This document shows positions 16,383 through 21,822 of a stretch of DNA of 64,000 nucleotides, piece after piece. The position numbers and the translations under genes were made by a program. Position 1 is the stretch's first letter, and every line of letters starts with the position of its first letter. The notes under the pieces are model-generated. The model saw only the letters and a list, made by a program, of their open reading frames with translations. It was not told the DNA's origin and did not search any database. The DNA lies in assembly GCA_003193925.1 (NCBI GenBank), contig PSPG01000008.1:1-64000 (forward strand). Direction: 5' to 3'. This DNA is from Candidatus Thalassarchaeum betae (lineage in GTDB: Archaea; Thermoplasmatota; Poseidoniia; Poseidoniales; Thalassarchaeaceae).

Positions 16383-16937
16383 ATGCGCAGTTCAGCCATA
16401 CTGGCAGTCGTCCTGCTGCTGCCGCTGGCAGCCGCGGCAGGCGGGGTGAACGAGGCGGCCGAGATAGAGGGCACCGCCATCGTATCGGTCGAGACGGCCG
16501 ACGTCGCCCCTGCCAGCGAGCAGTTCGACATCACCGTCACCATCGATGACGAGGCTGCCTCGAACGGCACGAGCGTGGGTTGGACCACCCAGATCTGCGT
16601 CAACTCGGGTGTGTGCTACCCACCGGAGCCCGGCAGTCTCACAGCCAGCTCCGACGGCAGCACGTGGACGGGTTCCCTGATTCCCGACCACAACTCCACC
16701 TACGTCAACTGGCGAATCGAGCTGAACTGGGCTGATGGCGGCAACGAGACGGTCCCAGAGACCGGGTTCGGCTGGAAGGTCTGGTCCAACTGCTGGTTCG
16801 ACGGCGAGGCGTGGGGTGGCTCCGACCGATCCTGCCAAGGCCAGGATGATGATGACGAGGAGGAGCTGCCGGGCTTCGGCGCCGTCCTCGCTGTGGCCGC
16901 CGTAGCCATGGCAGGCTTGATGGCGCGACGCGACTGA
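16383..16937 (+). CDS. Exported PGF-CTERM-like surface protein
   Basis: A signal peptide (about residues 1-20) is followed by a beta-rich domain of about 120 residues with four Cys that could form two disulfides. Next come an acidic DDDDEEE spacer and a C-terminal tripartite signal: PGFG at 163-166, a hydrophobic helix, and ARRD. That tail is the PGF-CTERM type known to be cut and lipid-modified by archaeosortase ArtA in haloarchaea. Function is otherwise unknown. It is 8 bp upstream of the nitroreductase gene and likely co-transcribed. Confidence 0.8.
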   Translation: MRSSAILAVVLLLPLAAAAGGVNEAAEIEGTAIVSVETADVAPASEQFDITVTIDDEAASNGTSVGWTTQICVNSGVCYPPEPGSLTASSDGSTWTGSLIPDHNSTYVNWRIELNWADGGNETVPETGFGWKVWSNCWFDGEAWGGSDRSCQGQDDDDEEELPGFGAVLAVAAVAMAGLMARRD

Positions 16938-17657: not shown

Positions 17658-18620
17658 TCAATGCTGACTCGTCTTCTCGTCCCCAGCGGGCACCATGAAC
17701 ACCAGTGCGACGCCCGAGCCCACGATCAGCAGGCCGCCTATCCAGTCGGCGGTGCTCAGCGTCTCGCCGAACACAGTGAACCCGTAGAACGTCGCCACGA
17801 TGACGGTGAGGTACGAGAACGCGCTGACCCATGCGGCGTTGGCCTTCTGGTAGGCCATGGTGATTCCGACCTGCCCGCCTCCGGCTCCGATTCCGATGCC
17901 GACCAGGGCGGCCAGGGTCTGCCTGTCCACGGAGAGTAGGTCGGGGGCGGCCTGCACCACGCTGGCTGCGACTGAAGCCGCGGCGAACCAGAACACCACC
18001 GAGGTGGGAGAGTCGGTGGTGCGCAGCTCGCGCACGTAAATGTAAGCGAACGCCGCGAAGAATCCCGAGCCCAGAGCCAGCAGCGCGTCGGGCTCGACCT
18101 TGCCCAGCTCGGGCGAGACGATTAGGACGATTCCTGCGAAGGCGGTGATGACGAGGAGGGCTACGCCTGCTGAGACCCTCTCTGCCAGCATCTTGCCCGA
18201 GAGCAGGGCGACGAACAGGGGGGCGGTGTACTGCAGGGTGACCGCCTGGCCTATCGGGATCCTGCCGAGGGCGGTGAAGTAGAGGATCATCGCTGTCAGG
18301 CCCACAGCGCAGCGCAGGAACATCGTCTTGCGGTTGTTCACCCTCAGGCTGATGCCGCGGCTGGCTGCGAAGGCGGCTACTGCGAAGGCTATCACCGCCG
18401 AGCGCACCATGATGATCATCCAGACGTCAGCGTGCACGGTCGTCCACTTCACCAGGGCGTTCATCGAGCCGAAGCAGAGGCTGCCGAAGATCATCCACAG
18501 GACCGCTGCTCGAGCGGAGTCCGACGTGTTCTCCTGGCTCACGAACGACGACAGGTCGGGGCCGTCTGAGGCTGACGAGGCGATTTCCCCCAGGCCTCGG
18601 CCGAGTCCGCGCTTCGGCAT
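17658..18620 (-). CDS. EamA/DMT-family permease with ParB-type N-terminal peptide
   Basis: Ten hydrophobic helices in two EamA repeats (about residues 40-310) mark a drug/metabolite transporter family permease; the substrate is unknown. The ATG at 18620, one base after the parA stop, gives an N-terminus MPKRGLGRGLGEIASSA. This is the KRGLGRGL peptide that begins bacterial ParB/Spo0J proteins and stimulates the ATPase of ParA. About 30 polar residues link it to the first helix, leaving it free in the cytoplasm. No ParB DNA-binding domain is present. Gene order SAP protein, ParA, permease suggests the peptide acts on the neighbouring ParA. Confidence 0.85.
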   Translation of the reverse strand: MPKRGLGRGLGEIASSASDGPDLSSFVSQENTSDSARAAVLWMIFGSLCFGSMNALVKWTTVHADVWMIIMVRSAVIAFAVAAFAASRGISLRVNNRKTMFLRCAVGLTAMILYFTALGRIPIGQAVTLQYTAPLFVALLSGKMLAERVSAGVALLVITAFAGIVLIVSPELGKVEPDALLALGSGFFAAFAYIYVRELRTTDSPTSVVFWFAAASVAASVVQAAPDLLSVDRQTLAALVGIGIGAGGGQVGITMAYQKANAAWVSAFSYLTVIVATFYGFTVFGETLSTADWIGGLLIVGSGVALVFMVPAGDEKTSQH

Positions 18621-18621
18621 C

Positions 18622-19611
18622 CTACGCAAGACCCCAGCGACGCTCTAGAACCGTTGCCATCGCCTGGTAGTCCTGACCGCCCGCGCTAGTCGGGTCGTGC
18701 AGGTGTATCGGGATACCGTGGCTGGGTGCCTCTGCGAGCCGGATGTTCCTGCGGATGGCCGGCTCCACAATGAGATCTGGGAAGGTCTCCCTGACCTCTC
18801 CGGCGACCTGCTGGTTGAGCAGGGTGGGGGCGTGCATCGTCAGCAGCACCCCGTCGACCCCGAGCCGTGGGTTGAGCAGTCCCCTGACCTCCCTGATGGT
18901 GCCTGCCAGCAGGGCCAGGCCCTCGAGCGCGAAGTACTCGGTCTGGACTGGAATCAGGATGCCGTCGCTGGCGACCAGTGCGTTGATCGAGACCAAGCCC
19001 AGCGAGGGCGGGGTGTCGATGATGACAACGTCATAATGCGGCAGCAGCGGCTCCAGCGCCTCGGCGAGGCGGCGCTCCCGGCCCAACTGCCTGAGCATTT
19101 CCTGCTCGAGCCCGACGAGGCTCCTGTCGCCGACGATCATGTGGAGCCCCTCGACGGCAGTCGCGTGCCTCGCGCTGACCGCGCTCTCCGGATTGAGGAT
19201 GAGGTCGCGCGTGGTCGCGCTGACCTTGCTCTTGTCGACGCCGAGCCCGGTCGCGCAGTTGCCCTGGGAGTCAGCGTCGACGACCAGGACGCTGTGGCCG
19301 CGCAGCGCCAACTGGGCTGCGATGTTGATGACGGTGGTCGTCTTGCCGACGCCGCCCTTCTGATTGATGACGGTGACAACGCGCGCCCTGCCCTCGGGCG
19401 TCGGCTGGGCCCGCGGCAGGTCGAGCGGGCGGCGTGCCCGCGCTGTGCTGATCTCCTCGACGGCATCCAGCGACGGGGCCGTCGACTCCTCCTCGACCTC
19501 GGTGAACTCGACGTCGATAACAAGCGGTGCGCTCTCCACCTCCGGCAGCGTGCTGCCTTCTTCGTCGCTGGGCATACGAGCGCCTGCGGCGCTCGGAGTG
19601 CTGTTGAACAT
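18622..19611 (-). CDS. parA: ParA/Soj-family ATPase
   Basis: This deviant Walker ATPase dimerises on ATP and binds DNA non-specifically to position cargo. Residues 80-92 read TVINQKGGVGKTT (deviant Walker A with signature Lys), VLVVDADSQGN follows (A' motif), and DVVIIDTPPSLG is Walker B. Basic residues near the C-terminus (EPAIRRNIRLAEAPSHG) match the Soj DNA-binding surface. An acidic 75-residue N-terminal extension is unusual. The start is ATG 19611 or 19575. It follows the SAP-domain gene by 36 bp and abuts the permease gene. No separate ParB with a DNA-binding domain is seen in the window. Confidence 0.92.
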   Translation of the reverse strand: MFNSTPSAAGARMPSDEEGSTLPEVESAPLVIDVEFTEVEEESTAPSLDAVEEISTARARRPLDLPRAQPTPEGRARVVTVINQKGGVGKTTTVINIAAQLALRGHSVLVVDADSQGNCATGLGVDKSKVSATTRDLILNPESAVSARHATAVEGLHMIVGDRSLVGLEQEMLRQLGRERRLAEALEPLLPHYDVVIIDTPPSLGLVSINALVASDGILIPVQTEYFALEGLALLAGTIREVRGLLNPRLGVDGVLLTMHAPTLLNQQVAGEVRETFPDLIVEPAIRRNIRLAEAPSHGIPIHLHDPTSAGGQDYQAMATVLERRWGLA

Positions 19612-19647
19612 GCCGCCGTATGCGATCCGCGCCGAGGTGGTTAGGCG

Positions 19648-21822
19648 CTAGTCCGCGGGTAGCGAGGTGTGGTACCAGGCGACCATCCGGCTGGTCTCGG
19701 CGTTCATCACGAAGCTCAGCGCGTTGTCCCTGCCCGAATCCTCCCACGTGCGGCTCCCCGCTATGGTGACCTGCCCCTCTCCCAAACCCCCCGGGAGCAT
19801 ACCGAGCAGCTCGCTCTCCTCGGAAACCGACAGGCGGTAGGCGTAGGTGACGTCGACGTCCCAGTTGTCGCCGCTGTCGATGAACGGGTTCAGCTCTGGG
19901 TACCTGGTCTCAGACAGGATCCGGGTCTCGAGCAGCTCCAGCGTGAGGGTCTCCGGGACCGCTCCGCGGTTCCACTTGAACTCGCCATCTTCGAAATCGC
20001 CCTCAGCTATCAGCGAGCAAGAGGAGCCCTGCGAGCGCAGGATGATCCAGCCCGAGCTGTCGTCGTCGCTGACCCACGACATGTTCCACTCCGGCGAGCG
20101 GGTGGGCTGCGACCAGGCCGCCTGCCAGATGTAGCCGCCCGAGTCGAGAGCGAGCGCTGCGTCCCTCGTCGAGTGGTTCGCCATCAGGCACTGCACCGCC
20201 TCCTCCAAATCGAACATCCTGAGTTCCGACTCGTCCGGCATGGCCAGTCCCCACTGGCGCTTGTCGGTGGGTACGTCCTCGCCCACACCGGGGCTGCCTG
20301 CGTAAGCAGTGCCCCAGTGCACCGGGGTAGAGCCAGCGTTGCTGGAGGTCTCTGTCATTTCCATGATCACCCTCAGGCTTCCCTCGGGGAGAGCGGCTTG
20401 CGTGCCGGCGCTCACGAAGAAGTTGCAGTCGCTCGTCTGCTCGTCCTTGTCGATGAGGATGTCGACCTCCTGCTTGACCGGCCAGGGATTACCCCGCTTG
20501 ACCTGGATGTCGATGACGGCGTGGCCGAGGCAGCGACCGATCTCGAAGTGGAAAATCGTGATCGGGTAGACCAGCCCGTGTGCTGCGGTGTTGATCTCCC
20601 CACCGACCTGCCATCTCCAGTCGGACTGCCAGTTGATGTCGTCGTTCGACTTGTCGCCCTCCTCGAGGCTCTCGTCGCCGAAGAAGTCGTGCAGCTCGAT
20701 CGGCGTCAGGGGGAAGGTCAGAATCGGCGCCAAGTCGCCTAGGACGCCGAAGTCCTCGGTGCCGTAGATCACCGCCCTGACATCACTGAGCTGGCCATCG
20801 GAGTCGGTGAAGCTGACCTGCGAATCGGTGCGGATGGTCGTCTTGCCGGTGATCTCCCTCCAGCTCTTGGAAGTCGAGGTCAGGCCGTTGTCCTCCCTTA
20901 TCCAGCCGGTGTTCGAGCAGACTCCGTCGTTCCGGACCTTGCCCTCGAGGTCGATCGACAGGTCATGAGTGAGTATCTGCTCAGCGGTCAGGTGCTCGCG
21001 GCCGTAGGCGTCGCGGGCGCTGACCGCTCCCTCCAAGTCGGAGTCCAAGCCGTGGGTGATGTCGCCTGGCCCGCCCTTGCGGATGGAGATAGAGCCCGTG
21101 CCCGTCACGCCCGCGTGCAATTCGCCGCATACCTCGTCTAGGGTCGGCGAGACCGCGTCGCGGAGGTAGCCGATCATCTCGTCACCGGTGATGGAGACCG
21201 TCGTCTTGGTGATGGTGAAGTCCATGTGGTCGCCGTAGCGCAGCGGTCGCGCCGTGAACGAATGGTCCTGCTGGACGAAGTAGAATGCGATGGCCCCTAC
21301 CAAGAGGATCACCACCGCGACAGTCGAGATGGGCTTCCAGTTGGCCTTGAGACCCGAGAACGAAGGCACCGTGATCACCAGCGACGGCTCCTCGGCGTCT
21401 TCATCGTCGAGGAACATCTGCGGCGGCTCCTCGCTGGGAATCACTCCCGAGAACCACGGGTCCTCTTCCTCGGGCTCTAGCACGACGGTCTCAGGGATTT
21501 CCGGCTCGGGCTCCTCCTCGACGACTATCTCGGCCTCGAGGACCTCCTCCTCCGCCTCTTCTTCCTCGGGCTCCTCCTCGGCCGGGGCCTCGCTGCTGAC
21601 TCGGGCGATCAGCCGGTCGATCGCATCGTCGATGTCCTCGGGGCCGCGGGAGGTGCTGGCTGCAGGTGCGCTCTCAGGAGCGTCAGGGGAGCCCAGCAGT
21701 CTGCTGATCAACTCGTCCTTCTTACCAGATACCAGAAGGCTGCGCTCGCTGCACATCTGGCGCAGCTCGCTGACCTTCATCGAAGACAGGGTGTCTCGGT
21801 CAGGTGTCTCGTCTGAGGCCAT
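19648..21822 (-). CDS. Membrane-anchored SAP-domain protein
   Basis: The 724-residue product has a SAP domain at residues 15-44 (MKVSELRQMCSERSLLVSG followed by KKDELISRLLG), a helix-extended loop-helix motif that usually binds DNA. A Glu/Pro-rich acidic linker spans about 60-150. One transmembrane helix lies at about 164-183, and an external domain of about 540 residues is rich in beta strands and Asp. The basic side next to the helix suggests that the SAP end is cytoplasmic. The start at 21822 removes an artefactual upstream extension. It heads the operon with ParA and the ParB-tailed permease, so tethering DNA to the membrane is a natural inference. Confidence 0.8.
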   Translation of the reverse strand: MASDETPDRDTLSSMKVSELRQMCSERSLLVSGKKDELISRLLGSPDAPESAPAASTSRGPEDIDDAIDRLIARVSSEAPAEEEPEEEEAEEEVLEAEIVVEEEPEPEIPETVVLEPEEEDPWFSGVIPSEEPPQMFLDDEDAEEPSLVITVPSFSGLKANWKPISTVAVVILLVGAIAFYFVQQDHSFTARPLRYGDHMDFTITKTTVSITGDEMIGYLRDAVSPTLDEVCGELHAGVTGTGSISIRKGGPGDITHGLDSDLEGAVSARDAYGREHLTAEQILTHDLSIDLEGKVRNDGVCSNTGWIREDNGLTSTSKSWREITGKTTIRTDSQVSFTDSDGQLSDVRAVIYGTEDFGVLGDLAPILTFPLTPIELHDFFGDESLEEGDKSNDDINWQSDWRWQVGGEINTAAHGLVYPITIFHFEIGRCLGHAVIDIQVKRGNPWPVKQEVDILIDKDEQTSDCNFFVSAGTQAALPEGSLRVIMEMTETSSNAGSTPVHWGTAYAGSPGVGEDVPTDKRQWGLAMPDESELRMFDLEEAVQCLMANHSTRDAALALDSGGYIWQAAWSQPTRSPEWNMSWVSDDDSSGWIILRSQGSSCSLIAEGDFEDGEFKWNRGAVPETLTLELLETRILSETRYPELNPFIDSGDNWDVDVTYAYRLSVSEESELLGMLPGGLGEGQVTIAGSRTWEDSGRDNALSFVMNAETSRMVAWYHTSLPAD

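Follow-up and report, generated by a model that had tools for sequence, protein, structure and literature searches.

A ParA ATPase gene cluster of Poseidoniales in which a membrane permease begins with a ParB-type peptide

What does a ParA ATPase do when its gene lies between those of a SAP-domain membrane protein and of a transporter whose first residues resemble the ParA-activating end of ParB? The question is raised by three minus-strand genes in a window of 64,000 nucleotides, the whole stretch of DNA analysed here, from Candidatus Thalassarchaeum betae. A sequence-only reading had proposed that the functions of ParB are split in this cluster between two membrane proteins, one holding DNA and the other triggering ATP hydrolysis. 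The three open reading frames, with gaps of 36 bp and 1 bp, were confirmed at 19648-21822, 18622-19611 and 17658-18620, the permease ATG standing one base past the parA stop, and no paper describing the cluster was found in the literature searched. Its features are as follows.

19648..21822, minus strand: gene of the SAP-domain membrane protein (SAP-TM), 724 aa, with a cytoplasmic SAP domain, an acidic linker, one transmembrane (TM) helix and a large Cys-containing ectodomain
21694..21789, minus strand: SAP domain, SAP-TM residues 12-43 (Pfam PF02037)
21598..21639, minus strand: SAP-TM linker helix around DIDDAIDRLIARV (AF2 model and comparison by eye)
21526..21543, minus strand: acidic short motif VLEAEI in the SAP-TM linker (motif count against shuffles)
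21274..21339, minus strand: single TM helix of SAP-TM, about residues 162-183 (TM prediction and AF2 model)
19577..19595, no strand assigned: 19-bp perfect palindrome CGAGCGCC-NNN-GGCGCTCG, one base before the likely parA ATG (19575)
18622..19611, minus strand: Soj-type ParA ATPase gene (Pfam PF13614), likely start 19575
19504..19521, minus strand: acidic short motif VIDVEF in the ParA extension (motif count against shuffles)
17658..18620, minus strand: EamA/DMT permease gene, 320 aa, with a ParB-type N-terminus (PF00892, 84 bits)
18534..18620, minus strand: permease N-terminal segment LGRGLGEIA plus DGPDLSSF, apparently inherited from a small protein, the mini-partner (alignment with mini-partner N-termini)

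Three linked genes and their products

The gene order is conserved in relatives. A search of 60 relatives gave 20 permease orthologues, all within the family Thalassarchaeaceae (f1), and at 20 of 20 loci parA lies directly upstream of the permease gene, with the tail of the SAP-TM gene before parA.

SAP-TM has the single-pass architecture proposed for it: PF02037 matches residues 12-43 with 40.2 bits against a gathering score of 23.9 bits, and one TM segment is predicted at about residues 160-185. The AF2 model (pLDDT 77.5) comprises helices in the SAP part, a TM helix at residues 162-183 and a beta-rich ectodomain in which C232, C431, C466, C545 and C602 are invariant and C302 nearly so; these conserved cysteines fit a location of the ectodomain outside the cell. 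Comparison of the AF2 model with the PDB gave no known fold for the ectodomain at E <= 0.001, and a weak match to the DUF1849 barrel 6ntr was set aside. SAP-TM occurs in nearly all sampled genomes of Poseidoniales; in the rest of the phylum only SAP-length matches were found.

The ATPase is a Soj-type ParA with the complete deviant Walker A motif KGGVGKTT and AAA_31/CbiA Pfam matches, and its motif-2, the residues near Walker B and the Arg that binds DNA are conserved relative to ParA of Myxococcus xanthus; its best solved relative is 8ray (E 4e-59), which sequence and numbering show to be the M. xanthus protein. From the annotated ATG it has 329 aa, including an acidic N-terminal extension of about 70 residues, and its start is probably the second Met (19575), as relatives show no consistent start codon for the in-frame stretch before it. 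By inspection, its C-terminus (...YQAMATVLERRWGLA) has no recognised membrane-targeting sequence and the cluster no recognised MinE-like gene, whereas a MinDE system has an ATPase that ends in a membrane-targeting amphipathic helix and a MinE partner.

An acidic short motif is common to both proteins, being present in 32 of 36 SAP-TM linkers (6% in shuffles) and in 49 of 65 ParA extensions (0.5% in shuffles). A slightly stricter pattern matched three times in the 45 ORFs of the window (19,389 aa), and two of these matches are SAP-TM and ParA.

Some other genes deserve mention. A second ParA-like ATPase (KGGCAKTT; G000:C12:6119-6952, L079; also L080, L081 and L082) is found throughout Poseidoniales; small genes lie downstream of it in L080 and L081, the one scanned matching no family, and the equivalent of the bacterial Tyr81 is kept in three of the four loci compared. 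On the plus strand of the window, positions 16383-16937 encode a short protein with signal-peptide-like and C-terminal-anchor-like ends, next to ribosomal S8e and SRP19-like genes; its look-alikes adjoin the cluster in most loci of families f1 and f2.

The permease peptide and its small-protein counterpart

The third gene encodes an EamA/DMT permease, as PF00892 matches in two stretches and multiple TM segments indicate, and it does open with a ParB-type peptide. In M. xanthus ParB, the ParA-binding motif has been mapped to L11, R13, L15, L18 and I19 (PMC12462528). The permease N-terminus, MPKRGLGRGLGEIA, which contains LGRGLGEIA, matches four of these five positions, the fifth being Ala. A profile of the 29-aa peptide scores the window site at E 3.6e-16, and its strong matches in relatives all fall at the corresponding position of the cluster; the peptide is therefore not a chance resemblance.

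Elsewhere in Poseidoniales the third gene encodes a small soluble-looking protein of about 107-157 aa, which we refer to as the mini-partner and whose gene, of about 130-160 codons, follows parA in genera g2, g3, g5 and g8 of family f1 and in g16, g17, g19 and g21 of family f2. In its fullest form it starts K-K-G-L-G-R-G-L-x-D-L-L-A-Q-H-D-T-D-L-P-F-L-x-A-Y-G, and shortened peptides (GGRGLDHL, TGRGLDHL) occur in some g16 loci and in g19. The mini-partner profile matches in 144 of 244 Poseidoniales genomes and 15 of 22 genera, and the permease is present in 73 genomes of the other seven genera, all in family f1; no genus has both, and between them they account for 22 of 22 genera. The fused permease shares its first ~29 residues with the mini-partner, including P-x-L-S-x-F, and L6, G7, R8, L10 and P21 are invariant among the 18 sequences compared. 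As read from these alignments, the permease has replaced the body of the mini-partner and inherited its first ~29 residues.

In AF2 models the N-terminus of the mini-partner is disordered apart from a short helix beside the motif, at residues 12-15 (pLDDT about 50, low confidence), and its C-terminal domain is confidently folded in the order alpha-beta-beta-alpha-beta-beta-alpha (pLDDT 93-98 over most of it). Comparison of these models with the PDB gave nothing at E <= 0.001, weak look-alikes in the MotA C-terminal domain and in type III secretion chaperones being set aside. The protein has no Pfam, NCBIfam or PHROG match, was not found in the rest of the phylum outside Poseidoniales, and no description of the family was found in the literature. 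Many f2 genera (loci L128-L142) have lost ParA and still have SAP-TM and the mini-partner side by side; their peptides are eroded (KQRDLDHL, EKSSLDHL, KLSKGFDDL) and the following QNxTDLPFL-type motif stays. LGRGL is kept in g22 (L135) though no ParA gene is adjacent, and the mini-partner and SAP-TM genes of g12 are not neighbours. Genera with a mini-partner (L067-L073, L077 and others) have a gene of ~310-490 aa, often Pro-rich, upstream of SAP-TM; the window has a divergent RimK-like ATP-grasp gene there instead.

The expectation that orthologous permeases carry the peptide was borne out in part: it is present in 30 of 57 distinct (non-redundant) loci and absent in 27, including those of the window's closest relatives. 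Peptide-less loci come from g9 and g10, from part of g4 and from g1, the window's own genus, in which, among eight loci, only that of the window's genome has the peptide. On a tree of the 57 rows the label changes at least five times, with one to three losses in g1 depending on weakly supported branches. The permease segment has its homologue in the older mini-partner, and for that reason the loci without it are best taken to have lost it, on several occasions; the module can thus do without the peptide. A profile search of the peptide-less genomes for a peptide moved to another gene gave no convincing match. Over the 17-codon core in the 30 loci, L, G, R (one Met, in the fused copy L174, where it takes the place of the central Arg), L and P-(D/N)-L-S-S-F are kept and several codons are used per residue; this comparison of codon with residue diversity clearly points to constraint on the peptide. 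The fifth key position, I19, is degenerate in most fused forms.

SAP-TM itself differs between the two kinds of locus. The linker helix DDAIDRLIARV and its variants were seen by eye in 16 of 16 SAP-TM proteins of the permease clade and are missing from those of mini-partner loci, bar one partial look-alike (L138), and this helix may compensate for the lost mini-partner.

The ParA pocket and the search for ParB and parS

In M. xanthus, ParA receives ParB in a pocket formed by V116, L150, L152, L155, L187 and L192, and ParB R13 adjoins ParA Y81, E82, D110 and E117 (PMC12462528). When the pocket is mapped onto the cluster ParAs through the 8ray alignment, the loop L150-G151-L152 is kept, V116 is replaced by Q and L187 by E. 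Among 152 ParA positions that are invariant in peptide-bearing loci, sites 152 and 155 changed most often on the tree (6 and 4 times), in every case in a lineage without the peptide, and the six pocket positions hold 12 of 35 tree changes (column permutation p = 0.0003, conditional or not). The substitutions are conservative ones (L/I, I/V), variation at the pocket sites is also seen in ParAs whose mini-partner is intact, and there are not enough independent phylogenetic pairs for a significant sign test. We speak here of signs that ParA and the peptide co-evolve. Across the whole ParA family the R13-contact site is altered (Y81 to R/K, D110 variable), and activation may thus differ from the bacterial geometry.

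The sequence-only reading had counted on there being no separate full-length ParB with parS sites, and none was found in the organism's own genome (92% complete): PF02195 (ParB_N) has no match there, nor, with it, was the ParB/Srx CTPase and HTH architecture found, and canonical parS gave no convincing site, with two sites at 2 mismatches and similar counts, 0 and 1, in the reversed control. Those weak ParB_N matches in relatives (L025-L031) that were examined are small SerK-like proteins; the one scanned matches the ADP-dependent serine kinase SerK best, below the NCBI cut-off, and was rejected as a partition ParB. Since no ParB domain was found, the cluster belongs, as judged from its genes, to the ParA positioning family and not to ParABS.

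The exact core of the palindrome at the parA start, GAGCGCCNNNGGCGCTC, is present as a single copy in each of 10 of the 40 genomes searched, always at that place. Its arms are fixed across several genera, its centre is variable, and outer positions have changed in pairs in three loci. It occurs in peptide-bearing and peptide-less loci and is thus not tied to the peptide; candidate roles are an operator, a centromere-like site or an mRNA hairpin. An Rfam search of the SAP/parA junction gave chance-level matches only. A further motif, G(T/G)CA-NNN-T(C/G)AA, lies upstream in many loci.

A candidate positioning module at the membrane

Altogether, we propose with about even confidence that the cluster encodes a McdAB/Pom-like positioning module, built on ParA and peculiar to Poseidoniales (marine group II), which was rebuilt at the membrane by permease replacement. 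In the ancestral form, SAP-TM would anchor nucleoid DNA at the membrane, as its SAP domain and TM helix suggest, and ParA-ATP would coat the nucleoid, binding DNA as a dimer through the conserved Arg and being released by peptide plus DNA, as is usual in its family. The N-terminal peptide of the mini-partner would trigger ATP hydrolysis and its folded C-terminal domain would attach to a cargo. The SAP-TM assembly is the probable cargo, as its gene remains linked to that of the mini-partner in most genera, those without ParA included. In the window's clade, an EamA permease would have taken the place of the mini-partner downstream of parA and kept its first ~29 residues, so that hydrolysis would be triggered at the membrane by the cytoplasmic tail of the permease, and ParA cycling would link the nucleoid to a permease/SAP-TM patch, spacing, positioning or tethering it. 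Several daughter lineages would later have lost the peptide, with drift of their ParA pocket. Of the idea of a ParB split between two membrane proteins, the conserved linkage, the genuine peptide under selection, the absence of a canonical ParB match in the genome searched and the signs of co-evolution stand; the split itself appears as the derived state of one clade and not the founding design, because the permease stands where the ancestral activator, small and soluble-looking, used to be encoded. Nor is SAP-TM simply a stand-in for the DNA-binding half of ParB, since it stays beside the mini-partner in genera without ParA.

More tentatively, and with somewhat less than even confidence, we suggest that a nucleoid-bound ParA has a polytopic transporter as its ATPase activator, the activating peptide having been taken over from a soluble adaptor that the transporter replaced. 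The gene order held at 20 of 20 permease loci, the weakening of the peptide in f2 genera that lost ParA and the acidic motif common to ParA and SAP-TM speak for the positioning module; the degenerate fifth key position and the repeated loss of the peptide speak against it and for its main rival, in which the peptide is a slowly disappearing relic. An EamA gene would then have been inserted into the mini-partner gene with the first codons kept for translational coupling with parA, leaving the permease as only a transporter and ParA acting through SAP-TM, which gained its linker helix. Peptide losses while ParA and SAP-TM stay, the Arg-to-Met change in one fused copy and the appearance of DDAIDRLIARV in the permease clade agree with such a relic; however, L, G, R, L and P-D-L-S-S-F hardly vary across 30 loci although their codons do, and the constancy of the ParA pocket tracks the peptide. 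A relic serving coupling only should not keep these residues, and we regard the relic reading as less likely than the positioning module, though as the strongest of its rivals.

Two other explanations give the ParA a different task. A nucleoid-type ParA and a perfect single-copy palindrome at its gene would suit chromosome segregation, with the palindrome as a centromere-like site linked to ParA by an unnamed protein, but neither a ParB domain nor a good canonical parS match was found, ParA has been lost in many f2 genera, the second ParA-like ATPase is present throughout the order, and the palindrome could equally be an operator or a hairpin; we consider this role improbable. We give still less weight to regulation of the transporter, whereby ATP-bound ParA would dock on the permease tail to gate or recruit it and have no positioning role: the two genes are adjacent, and the usual DMT topology would place the peptide in the cytoplasm, yet the ancestral partner is not a transporter and the DNA-binding residues of ParA are conserved.

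Returning to the proposed positioning module, its parts resemble those of several known systems. In layout only, SAP-TM resembles the HeH/LEM proteins of the inner nuclear membrane, which likewise join a SAP-like DNA-binding fold to a membrane anchor but lack a ParA partner; in yeast, Heh1/Src1 tethers chromatin in this way. Hydrolysis triggered at the membrane would be similar in effect to MinD/MinE, except that the ParA here is of the type that binds DNA and has no recognised membrane targeting sequence at its C-terminus, and that the activator is the part in the membrane. PomX of M. xanthus activates its ATPase through a short N-terminal peptide. The PomXYZ system likewise has a ParA/MinD ATPase with a dedicated activating protein (PMC7993993); no resemblance to PomX or PomY was noticed in the cluster. 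The carboxysome-positioning McdA/McdB and related ParA/MinD cargo systems likewise combine a nucleoid-type ParA with a partner whose charged disordered N-terminal peptide precedes a part serving the cargo (PMC10241942); the corresponding traits, a nucleoid-binding ParA and a basic N-terminal activating peptide, are present here at the level of sequence, but the partner is a small alpha-beta protein or, in the window's clade, a polytopic transporter, and the cluster is archaeal and includes a SAP membrane protein. Chromosomal ParABS (Soj/Spo0J; M. xanthus, PMC12462528) has the same ParA family and an N-terminal LGRGLxxLL motif, whereas here no ParB CTPase/HTH domain and no convincing group of canonical parS sites were found, and the ParA has a rewritten R13-contact site.

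The ParA partners described in the literature surveyed either are soluble adaptors or belong to the cargo itself; here the peptide sits on an integral membrane transporter. As part of the transporter-activator reading, and held as tentatively, one archaeal family would show a soluble adaptor, a membrane-embedded activator and the loss of the activator; since these intermediate states are alive in relatives, a change of ParA cargo is directly testable. The analysis also points to an order-wide family of small proteins, and it suggests how the nucleoid of abundant, uncultured marine archaea may be linked to the membrane, by way of an order-restricted SAP membrane protein.
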